64,000 nt of DNA from Ignavibacteriota bacterium. Its GTDB lineage: Bacteria > Bacteroidota > Ignavibacteria > UBA10030 > SZUA-254. Positions 4,954 to 20,517 of the stretch are shown here, one piece after another. The translations under genes and the position numbers were made by a program. A model generated the notes under the pieces. It saw only the letters and a list, made by a program, of their open reading frames with translations, searched no databases and was not told the origin of the DNA. How positions within the stretch are numbered: position 1 is the first letter of the stretch; the number at the start of each line of letters is the position of its first letter. Where the stretch lies: the NCBI GenBank assembly GCA_016212665.1, contig JACREZ010000032.1, forward strand, positions 1 through 64,000, in the 5' to 3' direction.

Positions 4954-5400
4954 CTACATGGATTGAATAGAGGTGTTCTGCTTATCTTTAAAACTCTTTG
5001 CCCGCTCAGTAATCTCCCCCGCAATCTTGAAACACCCCTGAAGAATGTTATTTCTTTTTCTGATACTTCTCAGGAATAATCCCCCCGCTAAGAAGAACAA
5101 CGAAAGAAGAAACAGGAAAAATCGTACAAACGACTTGAGAGTGTTAAACGCCTCAATATTTATTTCTGTTGTCGCCGTTACTCCTTCTGCCACTTGTTCT
5201 GTGGCAACGAACGGATTGTATGACCACAACCAGAATAAGCAAATAATACAAAGCAAAAAGAAAAGGTAATTGAGCAATTCAAAAATTAGAATTACTCCTT
5301 TCTTTAACCAACGAACAAGTAACTTTTGTTTTGCTAAAGATTGGATTGCTATTGATTTTTGAAGAGTGAAGTCTGTAAAGTTTTGTATTGATTCGAGCAT
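4954..5400 (-). CDS. Small membrane protein, two helices
   Basis: A 148-residue protein not assigned to a known family. An amphipathic, Lys-rich N-terminal segment is followed by a hydrophobic helix at about 35-60 (VILIFELLNYLFFLLCIICLFWLW). A polar loop rich in Thr/Glu follows, then a second helix at about 88-110 and a basic cytoplasmic tail (RSIRKRNN). It lies between the T9SS protein and the PLP-enzyme gene on the same strand, about 80 and 120 bases from each. Reading-frame length, an ATG start and clear membrane helices support a real gene. No function can be given. Confidence 0.6.
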   Translation of the reverse strand: MLESIQNFTDFTLQKSIAIQSLAKQKLLVRWLKKGVILIFELLNYLFFLLCIICLFWLWSYNPFVATEQVAEGVTATTEINIEAFNTLKSFVRFFLFLLSLFFLAGGLFLRSIRKRNNILQGCFKIAGEITERAKSFKDKQNTSIQSM

Positions 5401-5516
5401 TTTAGTTATTTCAAATGAACAATGTAATTTTCGTTCGTGTAGATTTTTTTTCTGTAATAAATAGTAATGCCTTAGTTCTTGTTGTCTTGCTTAAACCATG
5501 CCAGTTTATTAAAAAA

Positions 5517-7265: not shown

Positions 7266-8409
7266 TTAACATGTTATAAATTCTAAATTTTGCATACACA
7301 TTTTGACCATTAATAAATGAATATTTATTGATCAATTTTGCTTGTATTTTGTCATCATTTTTTAGGGTACTAATTGTTTCTACTAGGTCTTGCTTGGACC
7401 TTTTATGATTGAATATCAATTTTTCTATCGAATGTTTTAATATTCTAAATGCGTCATATCCAAATATAGAATACCCATGTAATTTTTTCTTACTCAACGT
7501 ATCTATTGTGTTGTTATCTGGAAAAGATAATAGGACATTTTTTTTATATTTTATTTCTTCTAACCATCTGCCATAAGCGCCGTCACTAAAGAGAATTGGC
7601 TCGGGCATTTTTAGTTTTGATTTTTTAATTAATATTTCTTTTGCGTCTTGTTGGTAGCTGAATGCTATCCAGCCATTTATCCCAATTTGTTTACCATAGT
7701 TTAATGTTCCAACCAGATCAGTAGTAGTGCTAATTGAAAAAGGAATGATATGATTAATTCCTATTTGAACTTGTAACTGTTGGAGTAAGTCAAATCCATA
7801 AGTCGTGGGAGAATATAGAATTCCCAATTGTAGATCTTTGTTATTTTTTAGATTAGAAGTTTTGCTCCATTTTACAATCTCCTCAATCTGTTTCTTATTA
7901 TTTGCTAATAATCTAAAGGCGATTTTTTCATATCCAATTAAAATATCATCTGCAGTTGCGATTGTAATCAACACAGGTATATTATATAATTTGCCTATTT
8001 CTAAACATCCAGTTATTGATTGCGAAGTATTTGCAGCTATAATTCCAACCACCTTGTCCGAAGCAATAACTTTAATAAGGTTGTCCTTTACGTTTTCAAT
8101 CAGTTCAGCTGTTTGAGATAACATCGAACTTGGTGAAACATCACTTACTAAATTTTCTGTTATATTCAAGAAAATAATTTTATAATTTTTATTATCTTCC
8201 TCATTAATTGCAATGTCTACTCCATTACGAATCATATTTCCAAATGATTCTTGCTTAGAAAAATCTCCAACAATTATTATTGTATTCCTTCCTTCAAAAA
8301 TTTCTACTTTACTACTTAAAATATTTGGTATGCTAAAATGAGCGTTTAGTACAATGAAAGAAAAAAAGAGAAACCAAAATAATAATTTCCATTTTGCTTG
8401 TATTAACAT
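7249..8409 (-). CDS. Periplasmic binding protein, type I fold (Peripla_BP_6-like)
   Basis: 386 residues with an N-terminal signal or membrane anchor (LLFWFLFFSFIVLNA). The body matches branched-chain-amino-acid-binding/receptor ligand-binding proteins: FGNMIRNGVDIAINE near residue 56, VVGIIAANTSQSITG near 115, NIPVLITIATADD, then FRLLANN and a Rossmann-like second lobe. Such proteins bind small ligands, usually amino acids, for ABC uptake or for a coupled receptor. No ABC permease or ATPase is nearby. Instead the gene overlaps by 17 bases with a membrane PLP enzyme, so it may sense or present a ligand to that enzyme. AT-rich like its partner. The fold is fairly sure; the ligand is unknown. 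Confidence 0.75.
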   Translation of the reverse strand: MLIQAKWKLLFWFLFFSFIVLNAHFSIPNILSSKVEIFEGRNTIIIVGDFSKQESFGNMIRNGVDIAINEEDNKNYKIIFLNITENLVSDVSPSSMLSQTAELIENVKDNLIKVIASDKVVGIIAANTSQSITGCLEIGKLYNIPVLITIATADDILIGYEKIAFRLLANNKKQIEEIVKWSKTSNLKNNKDLQLGILYSPTTYGFDLLQQLQVQIGINHIIPFSISTTTDLVGTLNYGKQIGINGWIAFSYQQDAKEILIKKSKLKMPEPILFSDGAYGRWLEEIKYKKNVLLSFPDNNTIDTLSKKKLHGYSIFGYDAFRILKHSIEKLIFNHKRSKQDLVETISTLKNDDKIQAKLINKYSFINGQNVYAKFRIYNMLNDKLP

Positions 8410-8452: not shown

Positions 8453-8743
8453 TCATCTACCCCCCACCCACTCCACCACCCCGCGCATATCTACCGACTC
8501 CGCAAACGCAATCATCTCATCAATCTTATCAACGGCGTCCATGTCGTACTTGGAGCCTTCGGGGAATACGGGGGCGAGCCGGTGGTAGCGCTCGGACAGT
8601 ATTTGTTTGCATTGATAGTCGGCGATGCCGTTTATTCCATCAAGCATTAAACTTACCAACGGCTTTGCCCACTGTGCGTATCCCCAATTTCGTATCGTTT
8701 GAACAGTCAAACACACTGTTTGGTCATTTGCACATAAGTTCAT
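8453..8743 (-). CDS. Hypothetical protein downstream of TIR-like gene
   Basis: A 96-residue protein of unknown family. Its ATG overlaps the TGA of the TIR-like gene at 8740-9102 (ATGA overlap), so the two are translationally coupled. It contains a short hydrophobic-aromatic stretch (IRNWGYAQWAKPLVSLML) and an acidic C-terminal half ending in WVGGR. Its base composition is visibly richer in GC than the genes to its left. The coupling suggests it works with the TIR-like proteins, perhaps as a partner or regulator; this is inference only. Confidence 0.55.
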   Translation of the reverse strand: MNLCANDQTVCLTVQTIRNWGYAQWAKPLVSLMLDGINGIADYQCKQILSERYHRLAPVFPEGSKYDMDAVDKIDEMIAFAESVDMRGVVEWVGGR

Positions 8744-9102
8744 AAATATTGTTTCCTCTTAATACCGTTCCACAAATCCAACGAGGGTAATCTCCCCTTC
8801 CCATCGGTGTCTTCATCTTCTCGATAGAAGGTTAGCAATGTCATCGGGTTCGATTGTGCAAATCTTGCTTCTATCCACTCATGATTATGAGTATCATTCC
8901 CTATCAAGACTAAAATTATCGCCGCTCCTTCTATTTTACTTTTGATATGTTGACGAATTAATTCTTTCCCCTGTTGACGTTTATCTTCGGTTTCATGTGT
9001 AATTATTACGTCGCCAAGTTTTTTTTCTGAAACGCACTTTTGAATAGTATGTATTTTGTTGTTATCCTCGTGGACACAACTAATGAAGATTGACTTACTC
9101 AT
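8740..9102 (-). CDS. TIR-like protein (DUF1863/ThsB-type fold), possibly catalytically altered
   Basis: 120 residues. SIFISCVHEDNN at the N-terminus and KSKIEGAAIILVLIGNDT around residues 55-71 follow the MTH538/DUF1863 TIR-like family, to which the Thoeris signal-producing protein ThsB belongs. In its neighbour the family motif reads YVQYEL with Glu84; here the matching stretch is WIEARF, placing Arg80 where the catalytic Glu is expected. It may therefore be a non-catalytic partner. It is short for the family, the C-terminal region being truncated. It lies 15 bases after the larger TIR-like gene and overlaps the next gene by ATGA, so the three probably form one transcript. Confidence 0.65.
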   Translation of the reverse strand: MSKSIFISCVHEDNNKIHTIQKCVSEKKLGDVIITHETEDKRQQGKELIRQHIKSKIEGAAIILVLIGNDTHNHEWIEARFAQSNPMTLLTFYREDEDTDGKGRLPSLDLWNGIKRKQYL

Positions 9103-9117
9103 ATGTACTCCGTTCTG

Positions 9118-9609
9118 TTACCTTCCTGCTTTCTGAGCGGCTAACTCAATCCACTTTCCAATGTTGTCATATCCATTATTATCCACCCAATCATAGCACG
9201 GATAGTTAGTACTGAAATATATCGGGTTTCCTTTTTCATCATACCCGATAGCACCAAAGTGATTTGAACCCTTTACAGAGGTTTGTTCATTCCTATCTCG
9301 TAATTGATGAATGTAAATGCCAAGTAATCCATTTCCTTTTTGAAAACTTTGCTGAAGTTCATATTGTACGTAAGGACGATTGCTCGTGTCAGAACCAAGC
9401 AACACAACTGTTACCGAGGTTCCATCAAGTTGCTTATTAATCCAGCGTTTGACAGACTCCTCACCTTCTTTTTCAACCTTTTCAAATTCTGCCGCATCAA
9501 TAAACCCGGCAATTTCTCTATCTTCTTTGGTGATCCAACTATTTCTTACCTGATTGGCTCGCCAGACATCATTTTTATAATGGAAACTAAAAAATACTCT
9601 TCTTGCCAT
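9118..9609 (-). CDS. TIR-like (DUF1863/MTH538, ThsB-type) protein
   Basis: 163 residues, full family length. The start RRVFFSFHYKNDVWRANQVR is a typical opening of this family, followed by VTVVLLGSDTSNRPYVQYEL with predicted catalytic Glu84 and the C-terminal NGYDNIGKWIELAAQKAG. In Thoeris defence, ThsB proteins of this family use NAD to make cyclic or conjugated ADP-ribose signals after phage infection, and a second protein (ThsA) responds. No ThsA-like SIR2, SLOG or macro gene is visible here. The neighbours are a membrane protein 10 bases upstream and a second, altered TIR-like protein downstream, so the module may signal to a membrane effector. Family placement is strong; defence role is inferred. 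Confidence 0.82.
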   Translation of the reverse strand: MARRVFFSFHYKNDVWRANQVRNSWITKEDREIAGFIDAAEFEKVEKEGEESVKRWINKQLDGTSVTVVLLGSDTSNRPYVQYELQQSFQKGNGLLGIYIHQLRDRNEQTSVKGSNHFGAIGYDEKGNPIYFSTNYPCYDWVDNNGYDNIGKWIELAAQKAGR

Positions 9610-9619
9610 GCCTTCTCTT

Positions 9620-10018
9620 TTACAATGAATATTTTATTACAATAATTATTGAAAATATAATAATCCCATGAAACACCAGAATTGTTTGTGAGACTAATGC
9701 CCTTACCATCGAACCTGCATCTTCTTCTACACAAGATGTATTCATGGAAAAATCTATCTTTGCTTCAGTAAGTAATCTTACTCTCTCGTACAACTTTCTA
9801 AACAACCGCTCTTGCCAAAGATAATACCCATCTAACGCCCAAAATATTATCGCCGGGAAATATGCCAGATACATAAAAGATGTATTCGATTCTTTCTGTG
9901 CTAAGGCGAATAACGCTGCAACGAGTGTTATTATCCACCCCTTTAGTAAAAACGAATTACTCGCCATTCGATTAATGACGCCTTGAATCATCTCAAGATG
10001 CGCGCGTTTGTTTTCCAT
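9620..10018 (-). CDS. Small membrane protein beside TIR-like genes
   Basis: About 132 residues from ATG at 10018. I prefer this to the TTG at 10039 because MENKRAHLEMIQGVINRM is a natural start for the family and AAGGA precedes it. Two helices are paired at about 30-48 (GWIITLVAALFALA) and 56-72 (YLAYFPAIIFWALDGYYLW), with a third hydrophobic stretch at the C-terminus (VFHGIIIFSIIIVIKY). I recall similar small membrane proteins next to TIR genes in other bacteria, but cannot confirm this here. The spacing of 10 bases to the TIR-like gene suggests co-translation; a membrane effector or anchor role is possible. Confidence 0.7.
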   Translation of the reverse strand: MENKRAHLEMIQGVINRMASNSFLLKGWIITLVAALFALAQKESNTSFMYLAYFPAIIFWALDGYYLWQERLFRKLYERVRLLTEAKIDFSMNTSCVEEDAGSMVRALVSQTILVFHGIIIFSIIIVIKYSL

Positions 10019-10106
10019 ATTCGGACGTAGTTCCTTCAAATGTCCACGTTAGCGTTGAATCTTTTCGGACGTCATGCACCATTTCACGACTCTGTTCTTC
10101 TGTCAT
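9993..10106 (-). CDS. Possible small ORF within intergenic element, overlapping membrane-protein start
   Basis: An ATG at 10106 opens a frame of 37 codons, starting MTEEQSREMVHDV, that ends inside the start of the membrane-protein gene. Its ATG overlaps the TGA of an even shorter frame that begins near 10154. It spans intergenic element A. In the other three element copies the same frame is interrupted by stops, so coding is doubtful, and it may only reflect conserved nucleotides. It could act as a leader peptide for the TIR module. Confidence 0.22.
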   Translation of the reverse strand: MTEEQSREMVHDVRKDSTLTWTFEGTTSEYGKQTRAS

Positions 10107-10124
10107 GGCGTGACCGTGACAGCC
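10068..10124 (-). repeat. Intergenic element copy A
   Basis: One of four related elements of about 57 bp. On the minus strand it has a first block GGCTGTCACGGTC, 27 variable bases, then the hairpin block AAATGGTGCATGAC. It ends 50 bases upstream of ATG 10018. The hairpin is imperfect here compared with copy C. Found only beside this co-directional run of genes. Confidence 0.6.
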
Positions 10125-10204
10125 GAATCAATAATAGTTGCTATTTCTGGCATGTGTTGTTTTTTCTAATAATTTCAAAACAGCTTATTACCTGACGGTA
10201 ATTA

Positions 10205-10399
10205 TCATTTCAAATTTTCTACTTTATTACTTAATTCAACAATTGAAGCATCTGTTGATATCTTTACTAATAAAATAGCATTGATACAATCTTGTTTTGT
10301 GAGATAGTTTTCACTTGATTCCGCTATCTTCTTATTGTTTGTCGCGACTAAATTCCAACGCCACAAATCAAATTTATCTTTGTGCATATAGAAAATCAT
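10205..10399 (-). CDS. YegP-like (DUF1508) small protein
   Basis: 64 residues following the DUF1508/YegP single-repeat pattern: FYMHKDKFDLWRWNLVATNN, then IAESSENYLTKQDCINAILL, where Trp/Arg in the first strand, the SxxY turn and the Cys-containing helix are typical. These small proteins form a dimeric alpha-beta fold; their job is not well known, though they are common in bacteria and often near stress genes. It stands alone, with about 180 bases before the membrane protein and 85 bases after the preceding gene's end. Start at ATG 10399 with an AAGTAGG-like ribosome site. Confidence 0.65.
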   Translation of the reverse strand: MIFYMHKDKFDLWRWNLVATNNKKIAESSENYLTKQDCINAILLVKISTDASIVELSNKVENLK

Positions 10400-10483
10400 A
10401 TTGTTTATACCTACTTCTTGTTCGTATGAATCATTTCAAGATACTTTCCTTCTGACAGGATCAGATAATGAAAGCCATGCTCA

Positions 10484-11569
10484 TTAGAAATTCCATTCCG
10501 GTGTAGCAAATCGAACATTGAACGAAGTAGTAAGAACGTCTTCTTGTTGTTCTTCCTTCTGCCAATGAAGAGAGCCTTCTACCCAAACGCCGTTAAGGAC
10601 ATTAAGTTCGAATCCTGTTGCAATACCGAACGCTAGTTCATGCTGGTATTTACCGATGAAGTCGCCTTCAAGAAAACCTTTGGCTGAGTTACTACCGTAA
10701 TATCCTCGAAACACTCCGTTCATTTCCCACTCCGTCCATTGTTGTAATTGGTTTCTTTGAATATTTGTGTGAAGATTAATGAGCAACTGCACATCATCTC
10801 CGAAAAGAGGAAAACCACCAGTAACCCAAAGACCATGCTTAGCAAGCGAATAGTTCTTTAATACTGAATCTGTTGAGAATGCGGCGACTGCTATACCAAG
10901 TTCTATAATAGTCTTATTCCAATTATTCATCTTAACAGAATCTCTCATTTCTTCAATTTTCATATCCACTCTCTTAGATGCACATTCATCAATTACAATA
11001 TTATCTGTTTCGGTCATATTAAATTCATCAATTTTCAATTCAAGCGCGCATTGTTTAATTATTTCATTATATACATGCAACTTGTTTACAAGCAACTGTG
11101 TATAGGTATCATTGGTTCGCATATCTGTTTCATCATACAACGTAAATCGTAATCCCAATCCTAGTTCACGTTCTCCGGTAGTTGATTGTTTCGAGGCAAA
11201 AGAAATTCTCGCCCTGTTGACAAATCTATACCAACTGTCATTGATGTATTTATACAGATCTTGTTTTCCGAGCAACATTCCTGGTGCTATTTCCAGCGCA
11301 CCTCCTCCCTCCAATAAATTTTGTACACTTACAGCAATTTCCCTTATACTTCCCGGCTTTAAAATAATATCCTGTTCGAGTCCTAGAATTGTAGACGCTG
11401 GCGCAGAAGGAACGGCATAATCAATTCTCGCCTTTTCCGATGCTTTATCTATTTCAGGTATTTTAATTTCTTGACTGAATGTGCTAGCAGAGACGAATAA
11501 TAACGCAGACGAAATAACAAGAATGAACAATCCTGTTCGATATTTCTTTTCCAAAAAAGACACTTTCAT
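10484..11569 (-). CDS. Exported hypothetical protein, probable outer-membrane beta protein
   Basis: 361 residues. A clear signal peptide (GLFILVISSALLFVSASTFSQ) sits behind a basic N-terminus. The mature part has alternating amphipathic strands, including ARISFASKQ, LGLGLRFTLYDE, and a C-terminal run of GFELNVLNG, VWVEGSLHWQ and TSFNVRFATPEW that ends in a strand with terminal Phe, as in many beta-barrel outer-membrane proteins. A helical section rich in Asp/Glu/Asn (near 160-215) interrupts it. No family is recognised. It begins 3 bases after the end of the gene at 11573-11971, so the two form an operon. It may be the outer-membrane part of the surrounding locus. Confidence 0.65.
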   Translation of the reverse strand: MKVSFLEKKYRTGLFILVISSALLFVSASTFSQEIKIPEIDKASEKARIDYAVPSAPASTILGLEQDIILKPGSIREIAVSVQNLLEGGGALEIAPGMLLGKQDLYKYINDSWYRFVNRARISFASKQSTTGERELGLGLRFTLYDETDMRTNDTYTQLLVNKLHVYNEIIKQCALELKIDEFNMTETDNIVIDECASKRVDMKIEEMRDSVKMNNWNKTIIELGIAVAAFSTDSVLKNYSLAKHGLWVTGGFPLFGDDVQLLINLHTNIQRNQLQQWTEWEMNGVFRGYYGSNSAKGFLEGDFIGKYQHELAFGIATGFELNVLNGVWVEGSLHWQKEEQQEDVLTTSFNVRFATPEWNF

Positions 11570-11572
11570 AAA

Positions 11573-11971
11573 TTAATTTCCCTCCTTAATGAACTCAACA
11601 GCAAATAGTTCTCTTGCATAAGAACCGGAAATACTTTTCTCAGTTGTACTCAGCGTTAACTCATTATTCCCCTGCTTTAGTAATAATGTAATTTCGTACA
11701 TCCCTCCTTTACCATCTTGGTCACATATAGATATATAAATAAAAAGTCGTCTGCCAATATTCACATTTGAAGGTAAAGGAAGAGAAAACTTATCAAGTTC
11801 AGCCGTCGCGTTATCTCCTTTCACAGGAAATCCCTGAACAGTATTATTCGTTCCTTGCAAACGAAGGTCTGCATCATAAACGCAGAGCAAATGGGTATTG
11901 AATTGTAGCTCAAATGTAACAACTTCATCGGCCGATGAAATAGCAAATTTATTTTTTATTGGTATCGACAT
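11573..11971 (-). CDS. Hypothetical beta-rich protein
   Basis: 132 residues with no signal peptide and no recognised family. The pattern of alternating hydrophobic residues (VTFELQFNTHLLCVYD, RRLFIYISICDQ, MYEITLLLKQGNNELTL) indicates an all-beta, single-domain fold. An internal AISSADE opening suggests a cytoplasmic protein. It lies between the SH3-like gene and the probable outer-membrane protein and is 3 bases from the latter, so co-expression is likely. The role is unknown. Confidence 0.55.
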   Translation of the reverse strand: MSIPIKNKFAISSADEVVTFELQFNTHLLCVYDADLRLQGTNNTVQGFPVKGDNATAELDKFSLPLPSNVNIGRRLFIYISICDQDGKGGMYEITLLLKQGNNELTLSTTEKSISGSYARELFAVEFIKEGN

Positions 11972-12038
11972 AGAACAGTCCTTTAATTTTTTGATTGATA
12001 TTGAATTATATGATAATATTTTTTTTAAGTTTTCTTCT

Positions 12039-12353
12039 TCACATTGTTGCGCCGCTCCAAAAGCAATTTCCTTCCTGGTCTTTGTTCCAAACAGAATTGC
12101 CGTTTACACTCTCACCACTATCAATTATCTCAGTATATTGAAGCGTCGTACCCGGAGGTACTGTTCGAACTATTGGCGCACGAGTGGAGGGAACATTTTT
12201 TCTGATATTCACTCTTATCGTTGTTACAACAGAACCCGACTCTCTACGACTGTTGTATTCTGAAGAGCCAGTTCCCGTACATTCATTGTATTCCTGAACA
12301 ACATCACGTAGAAATTGGTCGTATGTTCTTCTGCTATGTGCTAGACCGCTCAC
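12039..12353 (-). CDS. SH3-like domain protein
   Basis: 104 residues. The C-terminal 60 residues match the bacterial SH3 pattern: VNIRKNVPSTRAPIVRTVPPGTTL, then NGNSVWNKDQEGNCFWSGA, equivalent to the usual VNVRxGPSTxxxVVxxLxxGT...W.KV..G..GWV. Such domains bind peptidoglycan or peptide ligands. There is no signal peptide, and the N-terminal 45 residues (EYNECTGTGSSEYNS) are polar. The short motif VPPGTT also occurs in the Thr-rich linker of the protein at 12801-13646, possibly a shared building block. It starts 16 bases after the membrane-protein gene ends, in the same run. Confidence 0.6.
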   Translation of the reverse strand: MSGLAHSRRTYDQFLRDVVQEYNECTGTGSSEYNSRRESGSVVTTIRVNIRKNVPSTRAPIVRTVPPGTTLQYTEIIDSGESVNGNSVWNKDQEGNCFWSGATM

Positions 12354-12368
12354 CGGGTCTGTCTTCCT

Positions 12369-12746
12369 TTATAAACCCAAATCATTTATTGACATGGTGA
12401 TTCCAAAAACAGGGATATAAATATTATAGATAGTCTGAAAACGAATCTGGTCCCAGATACGCAACAAATCCCTTGCATGATATAGTGAGTGTTTAGCTGT
12501 TTCTGCAATTTCCTTCCCCTGATGATAATGGAGATCATCCAATATCGCCGGGTCAGATTTCATACCATCAGGTAATTCTAACAACGAAACAGCAGAGTTA
12601 TAAGAATAGACCTGATAATCTATCCAACTGTTTGACCGAGCATTCCAAAATGTTATGAAAATAACTATGGCAGCAAACTGAAGCATAAAGAATACTGTCG
12701 CAGATTCCTTAATTTCTGTTAGACAGAGATTGTTATTCTCATGCAT
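12369..12746 (-). CDS. Hypothetical small protein with N-terminal membrane helix
   Basis: 125 residues, no family recognised. A hydrophobic helix lies at about 17-36 (ATVFFMLQFAAIVIFITFW); the rest is helical and polar, with a His/Asp-rich middle (AILDDLHYHQGKEIAETAKH) and an aromatic C-terminus (QTIYNIYIPVFGITM). It probably sits in the inner membrane with a larger domain on one side. It lies between the Thr-linker protein and the SH3-like protein, 15 and 54 bases from them, so a shared transcript is likely. Confidence 0.5.
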   Translation of the reverse strand: MHENNNLCLTEIKESATVFFMLQFAAIVIFITFWNARSNSWIDYQVYSYNSAVSLLELPDGMKSDPAILDDLHYHQGKEIAETAKHSLYHARDLLRIWDQIRFQTIYNIYIPVFGITMSINDLGL

Positions 12747-12800
12747 AAAAGAACACCTTGGGTAGTTTTGATAAACAAACAGTACATACTCGGAACATTC

Positions 12801-13646
12801 TTACGCCGGAACAATCTTCTCTCTTGTTTCTCCGTTGGGCATTTCCACTTTCGACCAAGTCTGATCTGCTTCCCGCAACGTAAGTTTTATTGATGTTATT
12901 TTCTCCGTCGCTATTGTTTGCAGTTCGCTTGCGGTCACTAATACGTCGAGTCGATCAGGTGAAACAGGCATTGCTTTGAGTACGGTTTCAACAATTTCCT
13001 GAATCTGCACAGCAACTTTGTCTTCAAAACCACCGGAGTTAATTAATTCATTTTCTGCCCACGTAGTACCGGGAGGAACAGTCGTTGTAGCAGTAGTCGT
13101 GGTTGTTGCTTTCTTCGTTGGTGTTGGTGTTTTAATCGGAAGGTCATCATCCACAGCTGTTTTTGCCGGACCGATTATGATTCCGAGAGGAAGCATGCTG
13201 ATGAAGAAGTTTCGTATTTTGCCAGCCGCAGAGTAGGAAAACTGCTTAATGTCGAACACAACACTAACTGGTAATAAATCGGATAGACTTTGCACTAAAT
13301 GGCTCTGATTATTTCTCCACGCTTTTGCTGCATCCGGATATTTTTTTGCCAATGCCGAAAGCGCGGTGTTGCTTTCTACAAGTGTTGTTATATACTTATC
13401 CAGTCGCGACACAACTTCTGCCTTAGATGTTTCATCGAGAACTTTTCCCGATACAGGTGTAGAGGTAAAAGCGACTTTCAAGTCAACTACTACTTCTTCA
13501 AGTGAGAACTTTGGAATAGGAAAATCTACTAGTAATGAATGACGTTTATACATTTCCGCAATTTCAAGAACTGCAAGGTCTGCTTGACTGCACCCTTTCA
13601 CCATCTGGCTAAGGAGAGCGCTTGTAACATTATTTAACGTTGCCAT
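12801..13646 (-). CDS. DUF2589-like protein with Thr-rich linker
   Basis: 281 residues. The N-terminal part contains LLVDFPIPKFSLEEVVVDLKVAFTS, which repeats the pattern of the DUF2589 proteins next door (LIQIPFLKIEEARFEFKTKI); I take it as a divergent member. A hydrophobic stretch near 148-160 (FFISMLPLGIIIG) is followed by a Lys/Thr/Pro linker of about 20 residues, and a C-terminal domain with VQIQEIVETVLKAMPVSPDRLDVLVTAS. It ends 6 bases after, and lies directly downstream of, a DUF2589 gene, so they are probably one operon. A DUF2589-related fold is inferred from one motif only. The function is unknown. Confidence 0.55.
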   Translation of the reverse strand: MATLNNVTSALLSQMVKGCSQADLAVLEIAEMYKRHSLLVDFPIPKFSLEEVVVDLKVAFTSTPVSGKVLDETSKAEVVSRLDKYITTLVESNTALSALAKKYPDAAKAWRNNQSHLVQSLSDLLPVSVVFDIKQFSYSAAGKIRNFFISMLPLGIIIGPAKTAVDDDLPIKTPTPTKKATTTTTATTTVPPGTTWAENELINSGGFEDKVAVQIQEIVETVLKAMPVSPDRLDVLVTASELQTIATEKITSIKLTLREADQTWSKVEMPNGETREKIVPA

Positions 13647-13652
13647 TGTATT

Positions 13653-14195
13653 TTATTTAGTTATTTGTGTTTCACGTGTACGAAGATTTCCGATGAGATT
13701 ACTATCAACTTCCTCAGCAACTACTTTCATTGTTACCTCAACTGTATTTTTTTCTTTTGATGGCATACCGGAATATTTAGTTTGCTTTTGAGTTGCATAT
13801 TTTACTTCAAGGTGAGTGCTGTTAATATTGCTACCGTAGTTTATCGAATGAATTTTTGTCTTGAATTCAAATCTTGCTTCCTCGATTTTCAGAAATGGAA
13901 TCTGTATTAAAGAAAGTAGCGGAAGCTTTATTGACTCCTCTTTTAATTCAAAACCACTCTTATCGGGTTTGGGAGCACTTTTTTTATATTGAACGATGTA
14001 CTCGGCTACCCTCACTGAATTAGGATTCAAAGTACCATCTTCATTTCTCTCGTGTGTCAATCCTACTTGTGTTATTACATTGACTGTCGCTAAAGCCGAC
14101 TGCACCTGAGCATTCATCAATGCAATAAGCGGAGCCCCAATCATGCTCTCAAACTCCCTTGTAGTTGATAATTGTGATTGATTTGTATCTGGCAT
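13653..14195 (-). CDS. DUF2589 family protein
   Basis: 180 residues. The core PLLSLIQIPFLKIEEARFEF, then KTKI, is the hallmark of DUF2589, whose function is unknown. The N-terminal helix IGAPLIALMNAQVQSALATV has an equivalent in the second copy at 15003-15689 (IGGPLQAAVQAQHAASMSQV). The C-terminal beta region ends in TMKVVAEEVDSNLIGNL, similar to the VHVKAINDEIPAGLDRIL of the second copy. There is no signal peptide, so it is likely cytoplasmic or exported by a route with no cleaved signal. It is 6 bases from the next gene, so it is in an operon. It is shorter than the other copy. Confidence 0.75.
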   Translation of the reverse strand: MPDTNQSQLSTTREFESMIGAPLIALMNAQVQSALATVNVITQVGLTHERNEDGTLNPNSVRVAEYIVQYKKSAPKPDKSGFELKEESIKLPLLSLIQIPFLKIEEARFEFKTKIHSINYGSNINSTHLEVKYATQKQTKYSGMPSKEKNTVEVTMKVVAEEVDSNLIGNLRTRETQITK

Positions 14196-14257
14196 AATTC
14201 TTTATCTGAAAACTTGACTGATAATCAATCTGGTATTCCCAGATAAAACGCTTAATA

Positions 14258-14836
14258 TCATCTCACCCCGTGTACTTCATTATTCACAAAATCTTCTACG
14301 TTTACTTCTTCTGCAATGAGTATCCGGATATCATCCATAATAAGAACTGTTCTCAATCTCACCGCTCCTGCCTTCAACTGCTCATTCGTGTTGATAAACT
14401 GCCATAGTTCATTAATAAACTGGTCGAAGGGCAAGTCACTGTTGTATTGTATCGTGTGTGTCTGGCTGACAATAAGAAGTAATTGCCGGACTAATTCCCT
14501 GCACTCTTCAAGTTTACCATCGTACCGATGTAATACATTCAGTACTGTATGTTGGAGTTCATAAAGACTTTGTGAAGCAATAGAGAGTTGTGATTTTTTT
14601 ACTGAAATGCTTCTCATGTCTGAATATTTTGGCGTAAGTATTTTACTCCGCACCCCGGCTAATTCCGAAACCTCACTAATATTGTACGTAGAGAATATCT
14701 CTTCAGTCTGTTTTATCCAGAAGAATACTTTTTCAATGAATGAAATATCTTTTTTCTCCAGACAGTTTACAATTTGTGGGAACTCCAACAATTTATTTTT
14801 CAAAGAATTAACAAGATTGATGGTTGAGAGTCTCAT
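14258..14836 (-). CDS. Hypothetical all-helical protein
   Basis: 192 residues without signal, membrane helix or known family. It is strongly helical, with heptad-like runs such as SLYELQHTVLNVLHRYDGKLEECRELV split by polar turns, and a leucine-rich C-terminus (RLRTVLIMDDIRILIAEEV). The DDIRILIAEE end suggests a compact helical bundle. It sits between the two DUF2589 genes on the same strand, 62 bases from one and 166 from the other; the latter gap holds a 104-bp inverted-repeat element. Its place between DUF2589 genes suggests a joint role, otherwise unknown. Confidence 0.55.
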   Translation of the reverse strand: MRLSTINLVNSLKNKLLEFPQIVNCLEKKDISFIEKVFFWIKQTEEIFSTYNISEVSELAGVRSKILTPKYSDMRSISVKKSQLSIASQSLYELQHTVLNVLHRYDGKLEECRELVRQLLLIVSQTHTIQYNSDLPFDQFINELWQFINTNEQLKAGAVRLRTVLIMDDIRILIAEEVNVEDFVNNEVHGVR

Positions 14837-14879
14837 TTCTGCTTACTTTTGCAATAGAAATATCTTGAAGTATGACTAT

Positions 14880-14983
14880 GGTTGTCTCTACGCCCCGGAT
14901 GCATCATGTTGGTAGTTTTGTTCACTTGATTTCGTTGTCTTGACGAAACGCAGGCTCACATACTCCAATAAGTAGAGACAACC
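14880..14983. repeat. 104-bp inverted-repeat element
   Basis: Ends are perfect 12-bp inverted repeats, GGTTGTCTCTAC and GTAGAGACAACC. A smaller nested pair (TTTCGT / ACGAAA) lies inside at about 14930-14948. It sits between the second DUF2589 gene and the helical 192-residue gene. It could be a small MITE-like insertion or a structured RNA leader. Confidence 0.5.
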
Positions 14984-15002
14984 AATTTGTCCTGAAATTA
15001 TT

Positions 15003-15689
15003 TTATGCATTGATACTTGCAATACTGTCTTCTAGCATGGTAAGAATTCTGTCAAGTCCTGCCGGTATTTCATCATTGATAGCCTTAACATGAACACCAA
15101 GATTATATGTTTTTTCTACTGTGGTACCGCTCGTTGAAGTTTTTTTATAGGAGGCAGTGGCTTTGAAATTTACAAACATATACTTAATCCCCAGTGTTGC
15201 ACTTCCTGCAAATTCACTTGAAACATTTGCAGTTTCTGTGGAAGTTAATTTTGCATTAAAGTCAATTGTCATCTCTTCAATTCTCAACGCGGGAATGGTA
15301 AGCATTGTTAAAAATGGTACTTTAATAGTAACATTATTAACTAAGAATTGTGTTGTTACATCAATACCTGCAGCAAGTATTGCAGCTGTTTTTTTCGCAT
15401 CAGTATCTGTAGCGGGATCGTGAGTAATTCTTCCCTCTCCCACGAGTTGATCGTATGTCTTATTATGGTCCGGATTGGCAACAGATTTTGCAAAGGCAAA
15501 ATCTACATACCTTAATTTCTGACCTTTCGGAGTTGTTGTAGACGCCGGATCCTCTTCAAAACCAACTGCCTGTATAAAACTGACCTGGGACATCGAAGCA
15601 GCATGTTGAGCTTGCACAGCCGCTTGCAATGGTCCCCCGATATAGACACTAAAGTCTAAACTGTTTAATTCTTGAACTAAATTTGGCAT
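15003..15689 (-). CDS. DUF2589 family protein, second copy
   Basis: 228 residues. Key match: VPFLTMLTIPALRIEEMTID, then FNAKLTST, the DUF2589 core. The N-terminal helix IGGPLQAAVQAQHAASMSQV is shared in form with the copy at 13653-14195. The stretch SEFAGSATLGIKYMFVNFKATASYKKTSTSG is beta and Ser/Thr-rich, and the C-terminus is a helix (DRILTMLEDSIASI). It carries a longer middle segment than the first copy. The ATG start at 15689 has a weak GGTGATA-type ribosome site. An intergenic element copy lies 241 bases upstream. Function is unknown; having two or three copies with similar layout suggests they assemble together. Confidence 0.78.
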   Translation of the reverse strand: MPNLVQELNSLDFSVYIGGPLQAAVQAQHAASMSQVSFIQAVGFEEDPASTTTPKGQKLRYVDFAFAKSVANPDHNKTYDQLVGEGRITHDPATDTDAKKTAAILAAGIDVTTQFLVNNVTIKVPFLTMLTIPALRIEEMTIDFNAKLTSTETANVSSEFAGSATLGIKYMFVNFKATASYKKTSTSGTTVEKTYNLGVHVKAINDEIPAGLDRILTMLEDSIASINA

Positions 15690-15929
15690 AGTATCACCTT
15701 TATTGTTATTTACCGGTGCTTAGTTATTAGGCAACAACCTCACCGGTGTACAGGTTGTTTGCCAGAGTATATTTCTTATTCCTTATCATTCAATATTGTT
15801 AACGTGATATTCACTCTTCAAAAACTTGCAAGTACAAACATTCACTACACTCGAATCAACATTATCACTTATCTTGAAGACGCGTAACATTTCTACTTCT
15901 TTAGCATCGTTTGACAAAATTTTACTTGC

Positions 15930-15986
15930 AAATCATAAACCATTTAATGACGTTCTTCTTTTATCCTAGTGTGGACCATGACAGCC
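15930..15986 (-). repeat. Intergenic element copy B
   Basis: Second copy: block GGCTGTCATGGTC, 28 bases, then AAATGGTTTATGAT. It precedes the DUF2589 gene at 15003-15689 by 241 bases. Apart from the hairpin region, the 28-base middle resembles copies C and D (CACAC.AGGATA, AAGAAGAACGTCAT). Confidence 0.6.
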
Positions 15987-16006
15987 TGAATTTGCCCCCG
16001 TGCAGA

Positions 16007-16042
16007 CAGACTGTGTGAAAGGTTTCTTTCTCACACAGTCTG
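16007..16042 (-). terminator. Hairpin after Trp-rich exported gene
   Basis: Perfect 12-bp arms CAGACTGTGTGA and TCACACAGTCTG with a 12-base loop, 25 bases downstream of the stop at 16067. No T-run follows on the minus strand, so it may slow or process the transcript rather than end it. Confidence 0.45.
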
Positions 16043-16066
16043 AATAGCAAGGGATTTGATGCAACC

Positions 16067-16825
16067 TTATTGTCCTACCAATGGCCACTGGGTTGACCAT
16101 CCATACCAACCCCAGTGGTAGTAATAACCCCACCACCAATTATTCCACCACCACCATGGACACCCATTCCATTGCCACCACCACCATGAATACCAGTAAT
16201 AACCATACCACCAATTCGTATGGCGATGAGAGTCATACCACCAATAGCGATACCAATGAATTTTCCATGGAGATCCAACGAGACAAGGTTGAATAATTCC
16301 TATCTGGACAGTGAACCAAGGCTCTTTGTTAAACGACAAACCCGTCCCTCGTGGTATTTCGTCCGGCTCAAATCCATAAACATTTCCTATGTCGGCTAAA
16401 TACATAGATTGAGCAGGATTACGTTTATCAATAACAATCGCAATGCGTCCTCTATCGTTTGTTTGCGTTTTTACTTTAGAAACAAAGCTGATAAATTGTA
16501 ATGTTGTTGAATCGCTCCCTTTTCTCAAGGAAATTTCATTGACTGATGCAACTTGCCAATTGAACGAATACCCTTTTACATCAACAAGTTCTTTCTGCAG
16601 CGCTTTGAATTTTTCGTGAGAAAGAATTTCTCTCCGGAATGAGTCTGCGCGAGTACCTGTGAGTTCTGTAGTTCTCGCCGCATATCCTTGAAACTTCAAT
16701 AGCGATTGAAGATCGGGTACCATTTCTTCACGTGTCTGACCATAGACACGCTGGCTCAATGGTGGAACAATAATTACAACCATGAGCAGATATAAGATAA
16801 AGATGTAAATCTTAGAGTTTTTCAT
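16067..16825 (-). CDS. Exported protein with Trp/Tyr-rich C-terminal tail
   Basis: 252 residues. A hydrophobic signal (IYIFILYLLMVVIIVPPLSQ) precedes a mature domain of about 150 residues with alternating strands (FISFVSKVKTQTNDRGRIAIVID). The last 65 residues are dominated by Trp, Tyr, Gly and His, for example HWYRYWWYDSHRH and WWWWNNWWWGYYYHWGWYG. Such aromatic tails are rare and could bind glycans or membranes, or be disordered. The same DNA read in the +1 frame is Gly-rich and also open, so a frame change near the tail cannot be excluded. The mature domain is unrecognised. A hairpin (16007-16042) lies just downstream and element C 129 bases upstream. Confidence 0.6.
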   Translation of the reverse strand: MKNSKIYIFILYLLMVVIIVPPLSQRVYGQTREEMVPDLQSLLKFQGYAARTTELTGTRADSFRREILSHEKFKALQKELVDVKGYSFNWQVASVNEISLRKGSDSTTLQFISFVSKVKTQTNDRGRIAIVIDKRNPAQSMYLADIGNVYGFEPDEIPRGTGLSFNKEPWFTVQIGIIQPCLVGSPWKIHWYRYWWYDSHRHTNWWYGYYWYSWWWWQWNGCPWWWWNNWWWGYYYHWGWYGWSTQWPLVGQ

Positions 16826-16953
16826 AACTACTCCATTGTTAATAGTGAATTGAAAATATTTATTACATTAATTTTAGATTTTCCATTACAAGGTTCTTCT
16901 TTATTCATTATAAATGAACGAGCGTTCAACTCTCGACTGCTTTAAATACTTGG

Positions 16954-17010
16954 GCGTCATGAACTATTTCATGACGCTTTTTCTATCCTATTGTGTGTCC
17001 CACGACAGCT
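16954..17010 (-). repeat. Intergenic element copy C, perfect hairpin
   Basis: Third copy, with the best hairpin: GCGTCATGAA / TTCATGACGC, perfect 10-bp arms and a 4-base loop. On the plus strand the hairpin is followed by TTTTTC. The minus strand starts AGCTGTCGTGGGA. It is 129 bases upstream of the Trp-rich exported protein gene. Confidence 0.65.
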
Positions 17011-17019
17011 AAGAAAATT

Positions 17020-17049
17020 CCTGTTGGTCTCATTAGCGAGATCAACAGG
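17020..17049 (-). terminator. Terminator-like hairpin after transthyretin-like gene
   Basis: Arms CCTGTTGGTCTC and GAGATCAACAGG, 12 bp with one G-T pair, loop of 6. On the minus strand it is followed by AATTTTC. It lies 16 bases after the stop at 17065. Confidence 0.5.
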
Positions 17050-17064
17050 AACGACTTCCGAACA

Positions 17065-18936
17065 TTATCTGCAGAAAGCAATTTGGTCCTCAACTTGATG
17101 TAAATTTGAATCACCAGTTGTTAATAAATATGTTGCCGTCAACGTAACTAAATAGGCACATAACGGATCAAGCGCAGTAAAATTATGAGTTATTGTTCCG
17201 AATGAATTTGGAATGGCTGGAATCGGACCAAGCGTAATTGTAGGCATCGGACCTTTTAGAGTTAAGCCAATACTTCCAATATTAGGATGAGCAACAGAAT
17301 AAAGAATATCAACTTTATTTGTAATCTTTTGACACCCTGCATTCATTAATTGTTGAATATCCACCATACAAACTCCATATTCCCCACCTGCAGGGCTGTT
17401 CCACGCACCCCATTCCGGATGATGATTGATATTTGTATACATGGTATTATCAACAGCGATCCTCCCACACATTCCGGCTTCCGTTATTGTTGCATCGTTT
17501 CCTTGCTGGCGAACAAGCATTCGCAGTGCAAATACTTTATCCTGAGCTAATGGTTTACCGGTAGATGTAGTATCCTGTCCTGCAACCAATCCATTAAGAT
17601 TAATCGGAGGAAAACCATCAAGCGATTTAGAATCAAGCATAATCTGGTTGCCGTTTGCGACAAACATACCATTACCGGCAGGATCCAACGGGTTGTCATT
17701 TTGCTGAGGAACCAGTATCCATCCATCAGCAGCTACGGGAGTGGTAATGGCTCCGGCAATTGGAACATTGCTTACTAAACAATCTTTGTTATTGTAAACA
17801 TAATGAGGAACCGGTAGATTTTCCAAGGTTGCTTTTTGTACAATGCCGATTTTCGTTGTACCGATTTGTGCCGGAGTAACGCGTTGCCAGTTAATAGGCG
17901 CTCCTCCCCCGTCGAAGTTTTTGGTAAATTCAAAACAATATTCCATCGGTTGGCCTCCAAAAGTTTGAGCCAAAATTCCATTTAATCGTAATGAACTGAA
18001 AAACGCGTAATTGGATGTTGTCAAACCATCACCGAAGGGGGCGCTATGCATTTGCGTAGAATAGTCAATACCACCGATTCTTAAGAATGCCGGTATGGGA
18101 ACAGGTAATGATGGCGGTATCTTCATATTCACGCATAGTTCCACACAAAAACAATTAGAAACATTTTCACGATCCTTCTGACGGCCGCGGCTGCGTGGTT
18201 CATTCATAATGACTATTCCAGCGCTACTCTCAATTGAAAAATACAGATCAGGTCCCGCAACCCATTCAACATTGATCCCGGAGAAAATAGTTTTAAGGAA
18301 ATCAGCTTCGGTGTAGTAGATTTTGAACAGCCCATAAGCATTGGTTGTTCCTTGCCCAAGATAATCATCCTGTATAAGATCAACATCAAAGGCTTTTACT
18401 GTTAACCCGCTAATTGGTATCTTTTTCTCACAATCTACAACACGTCCGCAAATAACATACAAGCCGAGCAATCGTAATAGCCAGCACCAGAATTTGTATG
18501 TAATCCCATATTCCCAATATGCAGTATAAGTTCCTTTCCTTTCCTGCACTTCTCTCCATAAGGGTTGCAGAGTAGTAATATGGAACTGAAAAGGCCCTCG
18601 TGGCTTTGGAGGATTTTTAAGTTTTACCTGGATGGGAACACTGCCACATTCAAAATCTATATCGAATGCGCTACCGTTGTATTTTTTTTCTGAGAGTTCA
18701 ATAGTGAAATTACCCATTTCATCAGTTTCGGTTTCGAACAATAGTCGTTTTGAAAGTGATTTTAATTCCTCTTCACTTCGCTGATGAAAGGTTTCTTTTT
18801 CGGGCGCAACTGCATATGCAATTGTGTTCTCGCCAGATTTGTCTACAGAATAAATTTTTACTTTGGCTTTGTAGAGGTAATCAAAACAATCTCCACAATA
18901 AAAAGCTCGTAGGTTTCCTTTTAAAATGTAATTCAT
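17065..18936 (-). CDS. Large protein with transthyretin/carboxypeptidase-regulatory-like domains
   Basis: About 623 residues from the ATG at 18936, preceded by AAGGA; the TTG at 18951 is a poor alternative. The N-terminal 30 residues contain CGDC and a first beta domain (YLYKAKVKIYSVDKSG). Around residues 135-215 is a carboxypeptidase-regulatory-like fold: CGRVVDCEKKIPISGLTVKA, then GLFKIYYTEADF, the shape of a prealbumin-like beta sandwich. The C-terminal 300 residues are mostly turns and strands with repeated Pro/Gly and no family. No signal peptide is seen. It is the largest protein of the locus and could be a structural or adhesive piece. Terminator hairpin 17020-17049 follows. Confidence 0.65.
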   Translation of the reverse strand: MNYILKGNLRAFYCGDCFDYLYKAKVKIYSVDKSGENTIAYAVAPEKETFHQRSEEELKSLSKRLLFETETDEMGNFTIELSEKKYNGSAFDIDFECGSVPIQVKLKNPPKPRGPFQFHITTLQPLWREVQERKGTYTAYWEYGITYKFWCWLLRLLGLYVICGRVVDCEKKIPISGLTVKAFDVDLIQDDYLGQGTTNAYGLFKIYYTEADFLKTIFSGINVEWVAGPDLYFSIESSAGIVIMNEPRSRGRQKDRENVSNCFCVELCVNMKIPPSLPVPIPAFLRIGGIDYSTQMHSAPFGDGLTTSNYAFFSSLRLNGILAQTFGGQPMEYCFEFTKNFDGGGAPINWQRVTPAQIGTTKIGIVQKATLENLPVPHYVYNNKDCLVSNVPIAGAITTPVAADGWILVPQQNDNPLDPAGNGMFVANGNQIMLDSKSLDGFPPINLNGLVAGQDTTSTGKPLAQDKVFALRMLVRQQGNDATITEAGMCGRIAVDNTMYTNINHHPEWGAWNSPAGGEYGVCMVDIQQLMNAGCQKITNKVDILYSVAHPNIGSIGLTLKGPMPTITLGPIPAIPNSFGTITHNFTALDPLCAYLVTLTATYLLTTGDSNLHQVEDQIAFCR

Positions 18937-19051
18937 ATAATATTCCTTCAATAATAAATAATAACGCTTACTCTTCTTCGGATTTTCGGCTTACTCCGTA
19001 TTTTGAAATAAATTTATTTTCTAACGTTTGATAAAATTATTTGCTTTGTTT

Positions 19052-19108
19052 GATGTCATGAACCATTTAATGGCGTTCTTCTTTTTCTTCGATGCGGACC
19101 ATGGCAAC
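19052..19108 (-). repeat. Intergenic element copy D
   Basis: Fourth copy: block GTTGCCATGGTC, 28 bases (CGCATCGAAG...), then AAATGGTTCATGAC. It precedes the transthyretin-like gene start (18936) by 116 bases. On the plus strand the hairpin has imperfect arms and is followed by TTCTTCTTTTTC. Confidence 0.6.
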
Positions 19109-19189
19109 AACATTAATAGTTGTTTTACATTCTTTTATTTTCAAAAAGCATTTCTTTAATCCTCAATTCTTTTTCCTATAAATATCCCG

Positions 19190-19360
19190 TCAAGGGAAAG
19201 TATATGCACTCGAATTCTTTTCCTTTCCATCTCCCAAAGCAACAACCCCTGCATTACTGGCAATGTTTATAATACCGTTGTTAGCATATTTACTCTTGTC
19301 TTCAACAATCCCATATATTGGATCGTCCTCAAAACTGTAATGTAGAACGCGTTCTCTCAC
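19190..19360 (-). CDS. Short LamG/lectin-like ORF, probable remnant
   Basis: A frame of 56 codons beginning with GTG at 19360 reads RERVLHYSFEDDPIYGIVED and then KSKYANNGIINIASNAG, the pattern of the first strands of a LamG/concanavalin-A-like domain (LxxSFEx...DxSxxxNNG). It stops at 19192 long before a full domain of about 150 residues could form, and the frame does not continue after the stop. It is most likely a truncated or decayed gene, or a very small secreted piece without a signal. Evidence is the similarity of one motif only. Confidence 0.35.
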   Translation of the reverse strand: MRERVLHYSFEDDPIYGIVEDKSKYANNGIINIASNAGVVALGDGKEKNSSAYTFP

Positions 19361-19481
19361 AACCTAATCGTATAATAATTGATGATGGTTTTTATTTTTT
19401 TAGTGATATTGATTTCGAAACATGCTGTTCCTCCGATGCAAAACTCATGATAGCTCTTTGAGAATAAAGATGTAAGTTTCA

Positions 19482-20102
19482 TCACTGCACCCTGCTCACG
19501 ACATTCGAGTACGGTCCTTTTCCTTTATTATTCGAGGCACGGACCCGATAGAAGTACCGCACACCGGGCTCTACATTATCATCTATTGTTGAGATGCGCG
19601 GAATTTCTGCTAAGGGTTGCCAGGAGGTTGGAGCTGTCGCCTTCGTATCGGCGGACATTCCTTTTTCAAACAAATAATATTCACCATTCTCATCTTTTCG
19701 CTCTAATGCTATGATGAAACCCTGTGCGTCTAAATCATCTTTAATGGTGAGCGTAAGAGGCATGGAAGGTTGAACACTCGCTTGACGTTCGGGAGATGTA
19801 AATTCGCTTCCGTATTCAATCCACTTTTCCCGTTCGTTCGCATGGATCCCCTTCATCCTCAACTCTGTCTCATCCGCCTTCGTCTCAATTTGCTGACATA
19901 ACTCCCGTGCCGCTATGCGTCGTTGCAACAATTGTTGTTCAAGGTTTGCAATTTCATTATCGGCGTTTTCTAATGCAGTCAAATCGGCTTTCACGGAGTC
20001 AACCGTATCGGGTTGCCCGTTCCAACGGTCAACATTTTTTTCAATTCCGTTCATTTGTTGAGAGCGTCGGTTATATGTTTTTTGGATATATTTTAATGTC
20101 AT
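19482..20102 (-). CDS. Coiled-coil protein with C-terminal fibronectin type III-like domain
   Basis: 206 residues. Residues 20-90 form a coiled coil (NADNEIANLEQQLLQRRIAAR). The C-terminal 90 residues look like an FN3 domain: a strand IIALERKDENGEYYLFEKG, then the diagnostic VEPGVRYFYRVRASNNKGKG, then PYSNVVSRV. In FN3 domains the YxYRVRAxNxxG strand is the most conserved feature. No signal peptide. This is the first gene, in transcription order, of the long minus-strand run and may build a scaffold or bind a partner. Confidence 0.65.
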   Translation of the reverse strand: MTLKYIQKTYNRRSQQMNGIEKNVDRWNGQPDTVDSVKADLTALENADNEIANLEQQLLQRRIAARELCQQIETKADETELRMKGIHANEREKWIEYGSEFTSPERQASVQPSMPLTLTIKDDLDAQGFIIALERKDENGEYYLFEKGMSADTKATAPTSWQPLAEIPRISTIDDNVEPGVRYFYRVRASNNKGKGPYSNVVSRVQ

Positions 20103-20262
20103 ATTTTTTACTTACATGTTTATTGATGAATTAACTATATGTAAAACTTTTTGTCAGACTCAGTTCTGCATGAAGCAAGTACTTATCAGTTAATATCATA
20201 CAAACCTTCAATTTTAAGTCAATTTCAAATATTTATTCCAAGAATTCGCGTATTTTTTCTCT

Positions 20263-20517
20263 TTACATGCAAATAAAAAGTATTATTTCGCGTATAAATC
20301 CTTTTTCTTTGGCTATAAATACCTTTTCTTCGGCTATAAATACCTTTTCTTCGGCTGTAAATACCTTTTCTTTGGCAATAAATACCTTTTCTTTGGCAAT
20401 AAATATCTTTTCTTTGGCTGTAAATACCTTTTTTTTCGGAAATAATCTCTTTATTTCAGGTGTAAATACCTTTTCTTTGAGAAGAAATCCTTTTTGTACA
20501 TCTCGTTCCATACTCAT
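20263..20517 (-). CDS. Heptapeptide-repeat ORF (KVFIAKE), doubtful gene
   Basis: From ATG at 20517, a frame of about 84 codons encodes MSMERDVQKGFLLKEKVF and then about nine imperfect repeats of seven residues, KEKVFIA/EEKVFTA, because the 21-bp DNA repeat is a multiple of three. The plus strand is open over the same stretch (SLAINTF repeats), so the long frame may be an accident of the tandem repeat. A hairpin (CACTCCG/CGGAGTG) precedes it at 20538-20555. No family is recognised. Confidence 0.25.
   Translation of the reverse strand: MSMERDVQKGFLLKEKVFTPEIKRLFPKKKVFTAKEKIFIAKEKVFIAKEKVFTAEEKVFIAEEKVFIAKEKGFIREIILFICM
20293..20500. repeat. 21-bp tandem repeat array, about 9-10 copies
   Basis: The unit is TATAAATACCTTTTCTTTGG plus C, repeated with small changes; copies 1-7 are most alike and copies 8-10 degrade. 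The unit is a multiple of three, so both strands stay open over the array. A minus-strand frame would give KVFIAKE repeats and a plus-strand frame SLAINTF repeats. It lies in the gap between the FN3 gene and the response regulator. Confidence 0.8.

Follow-up and report, generated by a model that had tools for sequence, protein, structure and literature searches.

A recurrent DUF2589 operon adjoined in several bacteria by unrelated peptidoglycan hydrolases: a possible lysis or release cassette

What is encoded by the long series of minus-strand genes at positions 10205-20102 of a 64-kb stretch of an Ignavibacteriota bacterium genome (contig JACREZ010000032.1, positions 1 to 64,000; hereafter the window), and how much of that series is a single system? 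The contig measures 258 kb and the genome 3.9 Mb. A preliminary description of the same DNA took eleven to thirteen co-directional genes, centred on proteins of the DUF2589 type, for one envelope or surface structure. All of the genes it named, including those for DUF2589, SH3, FN3, transthyretin-like, Trp-rich and membrane proteins, were found on the minus strand in the open reading frame (ORF) listing, but the unit conserved in other genomes comprised only two or three genes. We refer to DUF2589 as F0, to homologues of the product of window positions 12801-13646 as F1 and to homologues of the product of 14258-14836 as F2. The core genes of the window were as follows.

15003 to 15689, minus strand: DUF2589 protein A (F0), 228 aa, core; PF11655, E 3.4e-26, 92.9 bits
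14258 to 14836, minus strand: F2, 192 aa, core partner; homologues immediately follow F1 in 105 loci, no Pfam family
13653 to 14195, minus strand: DUF2589 protein B (second F0), 180 aa, core; PF11655, E 1.9e-14, 54.8 bits
12801 to 13646, minus strand: F1, 281 aa, core partner and probable divergent DUF2589; conserved neighbour, hhalign match to a DUF2589 subfamily

Both F0 proteins scored above the curated cut-off (23 bits) of the Pfam family DUF2589 (PF11655), a family without a described function, in agreement with the two clear members recognised in the preliminary description. A third, divergent member had been suspected in F1. Direct comparison of F1 with DUF2589 using hhalign gave a weak result, and a signal was seen only through a shorter DUF2589 subfamily, with which the N-terminal ~57 columns of F1 aligned (probability 52%, p 1.5e-4). 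The suspicion is therefore plausible, and this alignment, together with a similar predicted layout, makes F1 a probable relative of DUF2589, although it lies below the reach of Pfam. The AlphaFold model of F0 (pLDDT 73) contained a long N-terminal helix (13-43), beta strands and a C-terminal helix, while in that of F1 (pLDDT 72.5) an N-terminal helix was followed by one strand, a helical insert and strands at the C terminus. Neither the F0 nor the F1 model matched a PDB structure, fold searches of PDB and viral structures with these models returned nothing below E 0.09, and the F0 model had no match among viral structures at E ≤ 0.001. Baseplate and tail-tube entries appeared weakly in the fold lists (TM-scores near 0.1), and a tail origin of the core is not claimed. 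A PDB sequence search with the core profiles gave no credible match, the core proteins had no match in PHROG at E ≤ 0.01, no Pfam family described F1 or F2, and F1 was also without an NCBIfam entry.

The three-gene run F0, F1, F2 emerged from the neighbourhoods of the first 20 loci, and a scan of named genomes yielded 80 further loci from Chryseobacterium, Flavobacterium, Tenacibaculum, Nonlabens, Lysobacteraceae, rumen Bacteroidales, one Balneolia and one Ignavibacteria genome. Core genes lay on the same strand in all 158 loci scanned for gene order, with a median gap of 15 bp, and their arrangements included F0-F1-F2 (105 loci), F0-F0 (30), F0-F1-F0 (7) and F0-F0-F0 (7); related loci in these counts are not independent, and the gene calls were ORF selections by the analyst that were poor for GC-rich loci. 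DUF2589 genes were thus not scattered without shared neighbours, and the recurrence of core order far exceeds chance, so that in this respect the earlier proposal of a DUF2589 system held. The window carries DUF2589, F1 and F2 as adjacent, co-directional genes, the arrangement by which the core operon is defined, and it belongs to the module; its own order, F0-F2-F0-F1 (12801-15689), is rearranged and was seen in no other locus among the 158. The source genome has DUF2589 genes in a single place. DUF2589 was found in 27/396 sampled genomes of the phylum and 11/294 of the class, in 9/399 genomes from the phylum of G592 (the genome that carries the Lysobacterales locus L061), and in 17/392 and 22/395 genomes from the orders of two DUF2589 genomes in the latter phylum sample; its distribution is sporadic and accessory. 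A literature search that fell short of most subscription journals and all preprints gave one passing mention of DUF2589. Within the literature covered, DUF2589-F1-F2 is an undescribed set of three families that recurs as a single operon across many bacteria.

The core was adjoined by peptidoglycan-active proteins of at least eight unrelated kinds (GH24, GH19, pesticin, M15, CHAP, amidase_3, muramidase and PG_binding_1). A GH24 phage-type lysozyme lay beside the core in Burkholderia stagnalis and in genome G927, GH19 in G756 and G763, a pesticin-type lysozyme in G937, CHAP/TIGR02594 in Tenacibaculum, PG_binding_1 in G378, and an M15_4 gene, placed behind a patatin gene, in a large Chryseobacterium clade. 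The G633 locus held amidase_3 together with a Tle1-like phospholipase, and in an unverified phage record from gut a protein combining PG_binding_1 with N-acetylmuramidase (PF11860) stood beside DUF2589. GH24 and M15 neighbours matched phage endolysin families, and the linked wall enzymes had no clear signal peptide by eye or by hydropathy. The enzyme was often 0-300 bp from the core, and in the first set of loci all wall-enzyme matches but one fell within 2.3 kb of it. For GH19 (G756, G763), pesticin (G937) and GH24 (a 3.17-Mb Burkholderia replicon), a search of the genome or replicon found no family member other than the DUF2589-linked gene; chance adjacency is therefore unlikely. Because the enzymes that accompany this one gene set have an activity in common while differing in fold, it is probably this activity that counts.

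A fresh validation set of 37 loci was drawn after this idea had arisen from the first set. With the enzymes of the first set as search seeds, 6 of the 73 immediate neighbours were wall enzymes, compared to 3 of the 390 remaining genes of these stretches (Fisher p 0.0007), and the matches were to pesticin (L169, L184, L185), GH24 (L176, L193) and PG-binding (L179) families. A strict count of immediate neighbours in the first set, using phmmer seeds, was not significant (7/242 vs 28/1692, p 0.14), because the Chryseobacterium M15 gene is second from the core behind patatin, and because in two loci a missed second DUF2589 gene was counted as the neighbour.

Other envelope- or protein-attacking neighbours in Bacteroidota were patatin, a subtilase (S8) accompanied by a 67-aa gene and, in the same-family genome G475, PI-PLC; regulator genes were frequent near the core. 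The 67-aa protein (L053:12640-12843 and relatives) usually followed the subtilase in a DUF2589-F1-F2-subtilase operon, had no Pfam match and may be a free propeptide-like inhibitor. The GH24 gene of L193 was directly followed by a gene (5340-5822, minus strand) for an exported protein with, by eye, the look of a barnase-type ribonuclease. Beside paired DUF2589 genes in Pseudomonadota we observed a conserved protein of ~90-120 aa (L162:6715-7071, L169:8176-8538, L158:8997-9263 and L156:10317-10583) with the motif IxRIVVGxxxP...NRCLxxxPKGxIxGxExxF; the L158 copy was without a Pfam family and the L169 copy without a PHROG match. A small zinc-ribbon-like protein adjoined DUF2589 in many F0-F1-F0 and F0-F0(-F0) loci (L038:11501-11818, L146:8324-8626, L164:8452-8670, L168:6175-6465, L172:8458-8676 and L175:6812-7075).

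This pattern of neighbours suggests that the core helps to release or activate wall-cutting enzymes. Cytoplasmic wall enzymes need help in reaching the wall. The four core proteins of the window had no signal peptide or transmembrane stretch, as judged by a hydropathy heuristic rather than SignalP. In phage and in type 10 secretion, holins get enzymes to the wall and lysis frees cargo, and cargo release by holin/endolysin/spanin-driven lysis is established outside phages for type 10 secretion (PMC10847048). By analogy, we propose that the DUF2589 core may play a part comparable to that of holins. The reading that we tentatively favour, and would place somewhat short of an even chance, is a lysis or release cassette in which a small cytoplasmic module of the DUF2589 fold lets an exchangeable endolysin-type enzyme cut the cell's own envelope. 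Its members, usually DUF2589, F1 and the helical F2 or else two or three DUF2589 paralogues, would assemble into a complex that acts as a cytoplasmic scaffold; this complex would help one exchangeable envelope-degrading enzyme, itself without a visible signal peptide, to reach the envelope, and the outcome would be self-lysis or release resembling type 10 secretion but without recognisable phage holin or spanin genes. A more doubtful, further-reaching version is that DUF2589, F1 and F2 might form an undescribed cytoplasmic machine that takes the place of phage-type holins and, for programmed lysis or the release of cargo in Bacteroidota and Pseudomonadota, activates or delivers peptidoglycan hydrolases that are interchangeable (in certain lineages also lipases or proteases).

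The type 10 secretion and phage lysis cassettes YenLC and SmaLC (PMC10847048) resemble these loci in being small non-phage cassettes with an endolysin-type enzyme, with regulators near and with toxin-like genes beside some of them. In contrast, the DUF2589 core consists of unrelated soluble proteins, and no holin or spanin was recognised in the DUF2589 loci read. An endolysin was lacking in the window run and present in other DUF2589 loci. Two further genes of the window enter this comparison.

12369 to 12746, minus strand: 125-aa protein with a single hydrophobic stretch close to the N terminus (hydropathy), a local passenger with no homologue in other DUF2589 loci
12039 to 12353, minus strand: SH3 protein, 104 aa, GTG start; SH3_5, E 1.1e-4

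With regard to a holin, the window has this 125-aa single-transmembrane protein, which was without a family match, and no spanin family was found among the window proteins using Pfam. The best solved relatives of the SH3 protein were an SH3-like cell wall binding domain (8b2f, 5.8e-5) and a GH24 family muramidase (8b2s, 5.5e-4), and by this similarity it is a possible cell-wall-binding module.

Several observations weigh against a lysis or release cassette. No wall enzyme adjoined the core in most loci (31 of the 37 in the fresh set, and also the F0-F1-F2 Flavobacterium loci of the first set). Only enzyme families for which the first set supplied seeds could be detected in the fresh-set test, whose loci are in part related to one another, with pesticin providing three of the six matches. 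The core proteins have no visible transmembrane segment, and so no evident way to move an enzyme, and their models are of moderate confidence and fit no known fold. Within the window run, no catalytic wall enzyme was recognised using Pfam and the SH3 protein was the only relevant part; thus, the proposal is weaker for the window, where the enzyme partner is missing or unrecognised, than for the family.

Wall hydrolases and lipases are also classic effectors, and the module could be a carrier or adaptor for antibacterial or anti-host effectors bound for a further delivery machine (a type VI or extracellular contractile injection system, or Tc-type particles). The Tle1-like phospholipase and amidase of G633, an eCIS_core-Fic protein in G763 and a G091 protein with an N-terminal SpvB match would suit such a carrier. 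However, no tube, sheath, VgrG or baseplate family was among the 25 most frequent neighbour families, no obvious periplasmic immunity gene lay beside the enzymes inspected, and DUF2589 had no PHROG match; we consider a carrier unlikely.

Just as unlikely, in our estimation, is an abortive-infection defence with the core as infection sensor and trigger of a killing enzyme. Its sporadic distribution across the five genome samples given above would be in keeping with defence, as would the linked enzymes, which recall CBASS and other abortive-infection effectors: in PADLOC, the patatin scored against phospholipase effectors (1.6e-59), the subtilase against subtilase and IetS models. The window module also adjoins a listed defence candidate.

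9118 to 10039, minus strand: PDC-M50 A and B, a membrane protein (9620-10039) and a TIR protein (9118-9609); PADLOC PDC-M50A 6.4e-54, PDC-M50B 4.6e-62, ThsB 6.2e-68

In contrast to CBASS and other abortive-infection systems, the core was without a cyclase or sensor, 0/4 core proteins matched PADLOC 2.0.0 models, and there was no nucleotide-binding or nuclease partner. Moreover, the window was the only locus examined that adjoins a listed defence candidate, no general test for defence islands having been made. Both halves of PDC-M50 (M50A and M50B) are present and adjacent, and ThsB_TIR domains were detected by Pfam at 9118-9609 and 8740-9102; of the Thoeris pair ThsB and ThsA, a ThsB-like TIR is present in the window. 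The TIR genes, which the preliminary description noted beside the DUF2589 locus, belong to this separate defence candidate outside the DUF2589 module. Just downstream of the TIR genes (5517-8409, minus strand), a gene for an ANF_receptor-like periplasmic binding protein (7249-8409) overlaps 5517-7265, the product of which has hydrophobic N-terminal segments fused to a class-V aminotransferase domain.

The wall-enzyme link might instead be a by-product of prophage remnants or shared genomic islands, and DUF2589 could serve another purpose, for example the binding of lipids or cargo. Prophages commonly carry lysis genes, phage-like genes were present at some loci, and many DUF2589 loci were without an enzyme. 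However, only two DUF2589 loci were found in 2.9 million viral contigs, together with the one unverified phage record, and the short distances and single-copy enzyme genes described above make a by-product quite improbable. A phage or plasmid origin of DUF2589 was rejected, as almost no DUF2589 was found there.

Beyond the core, the series of genes did not behave as one unit. It was tight, with gaps of 3-166 bp, from 15689 to 10205 only; gaps of 165-530 bp carrying copies of a ~70-bp double hairpin precede 18951, 16825, 15689 and 10039. The remaining features were as follows.

19482 to 20102, minus strand: coiled-coil/FN3-like protein, 206 aa, outside the core; weak fn3 match, below cut-off
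19043 to 19112, minus strand: repeat copy 4; 80.1 bits
17065 to 18951, minus strand: transthyretin-like-domain (TTR-52) protein, 628 aa, outside the core, flanked by repeat copies, no visible signal peptide; PF01060, E 1.6e-5
16944 to 17013, minus strand: repeat copy 3; 76.6 bits
16067 to 16825, minus strand: Trp-rich exported protein, outside the conserved core, flanked by repeat copies; ORF and hydropathy
15920 to 15989, minus strand: repeat copy 2, upstream of DUF2589 A; 79.3 bits
11573 to 11971, minus strand: 132-aa protein; ORF in the tight run, no Pfam family
10484 to 11569, minus strand: 361-aa exported protein, outer-membrane-like; hydrophobic N terminus, no Pfam or PDB match
10205 to 10399, minus strand: DUF1508 protein, 64 aa, end of the tight run; PF07411, E 2.5e-9
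10059 to 10127, minus strand: REP-like double-hairpin copy 1, which separates the run and its DUF2589 module from PDC-M50; cmsearch, 78.9 bits

The repeat is ~70 bp long, intergenic and made of two tandem hairpins; four closely alike copies are clustered in the run, seven weaker ones lie elsewhere in the genome, and it also occurs in same-genus and same-family genomes. Because of its tandem hairpins, its position between genes and its copies elsewhere in the genome and in relatives, it reads as a REP-like element and not as part of the DUF2589 system. An integron-cassette reading was not our first choice, as copies of the same element elsewhere in the genome and in relatives lack cassette structure. 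The C-terminal tail of the 16067-16825 product is dense in tryptophan, with runs such as WWWWQWNGCPWWWWNNWWW, and at 20230-20502 a 21-nt tandem repeat of about nine overlapping units lies within a 106-aa ORF and would encode approximately KVFIAKE repeats.

The FN3, TTR-like, Trp-rich, single-transmembrane, SH3, 132-aa, outer-membrane-like, DUF1508 and TIR proteins had no phmmer match in ~195 other fetched loci, among which the same procedure recovered the core in 82-185. Because the repeats and PDC-M50 break the run and these accessories match nothing in other DUF2589 loci, the remaining genes are, by sequence comparison, local neighbours outside any conserved machine. An envelope or surface structure of eleven to thirteen genes is thus very improbable: the tight run and its flanks do encode exported, outer-membrane-like, SH3 and beta-domain proteins, but the core has no export signal, and its recurrent neighbours elsewhere are envelope-degrading enzymes.

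Overall, DUF2589, F1 and F2 are the constant parts by which this gene set, of sporadic occurrence in two or more phyla, can now be designated, and the function proposed for it is testable. If the lysis or release reading is true, bacteria would own a lysis/release machine that is not descended from phage holins, and the DUF2589 family would gain a role. Should the proposed mechanism prove wrong, the operon's conservation and the enzymes that accompany it would still be solid starting points.

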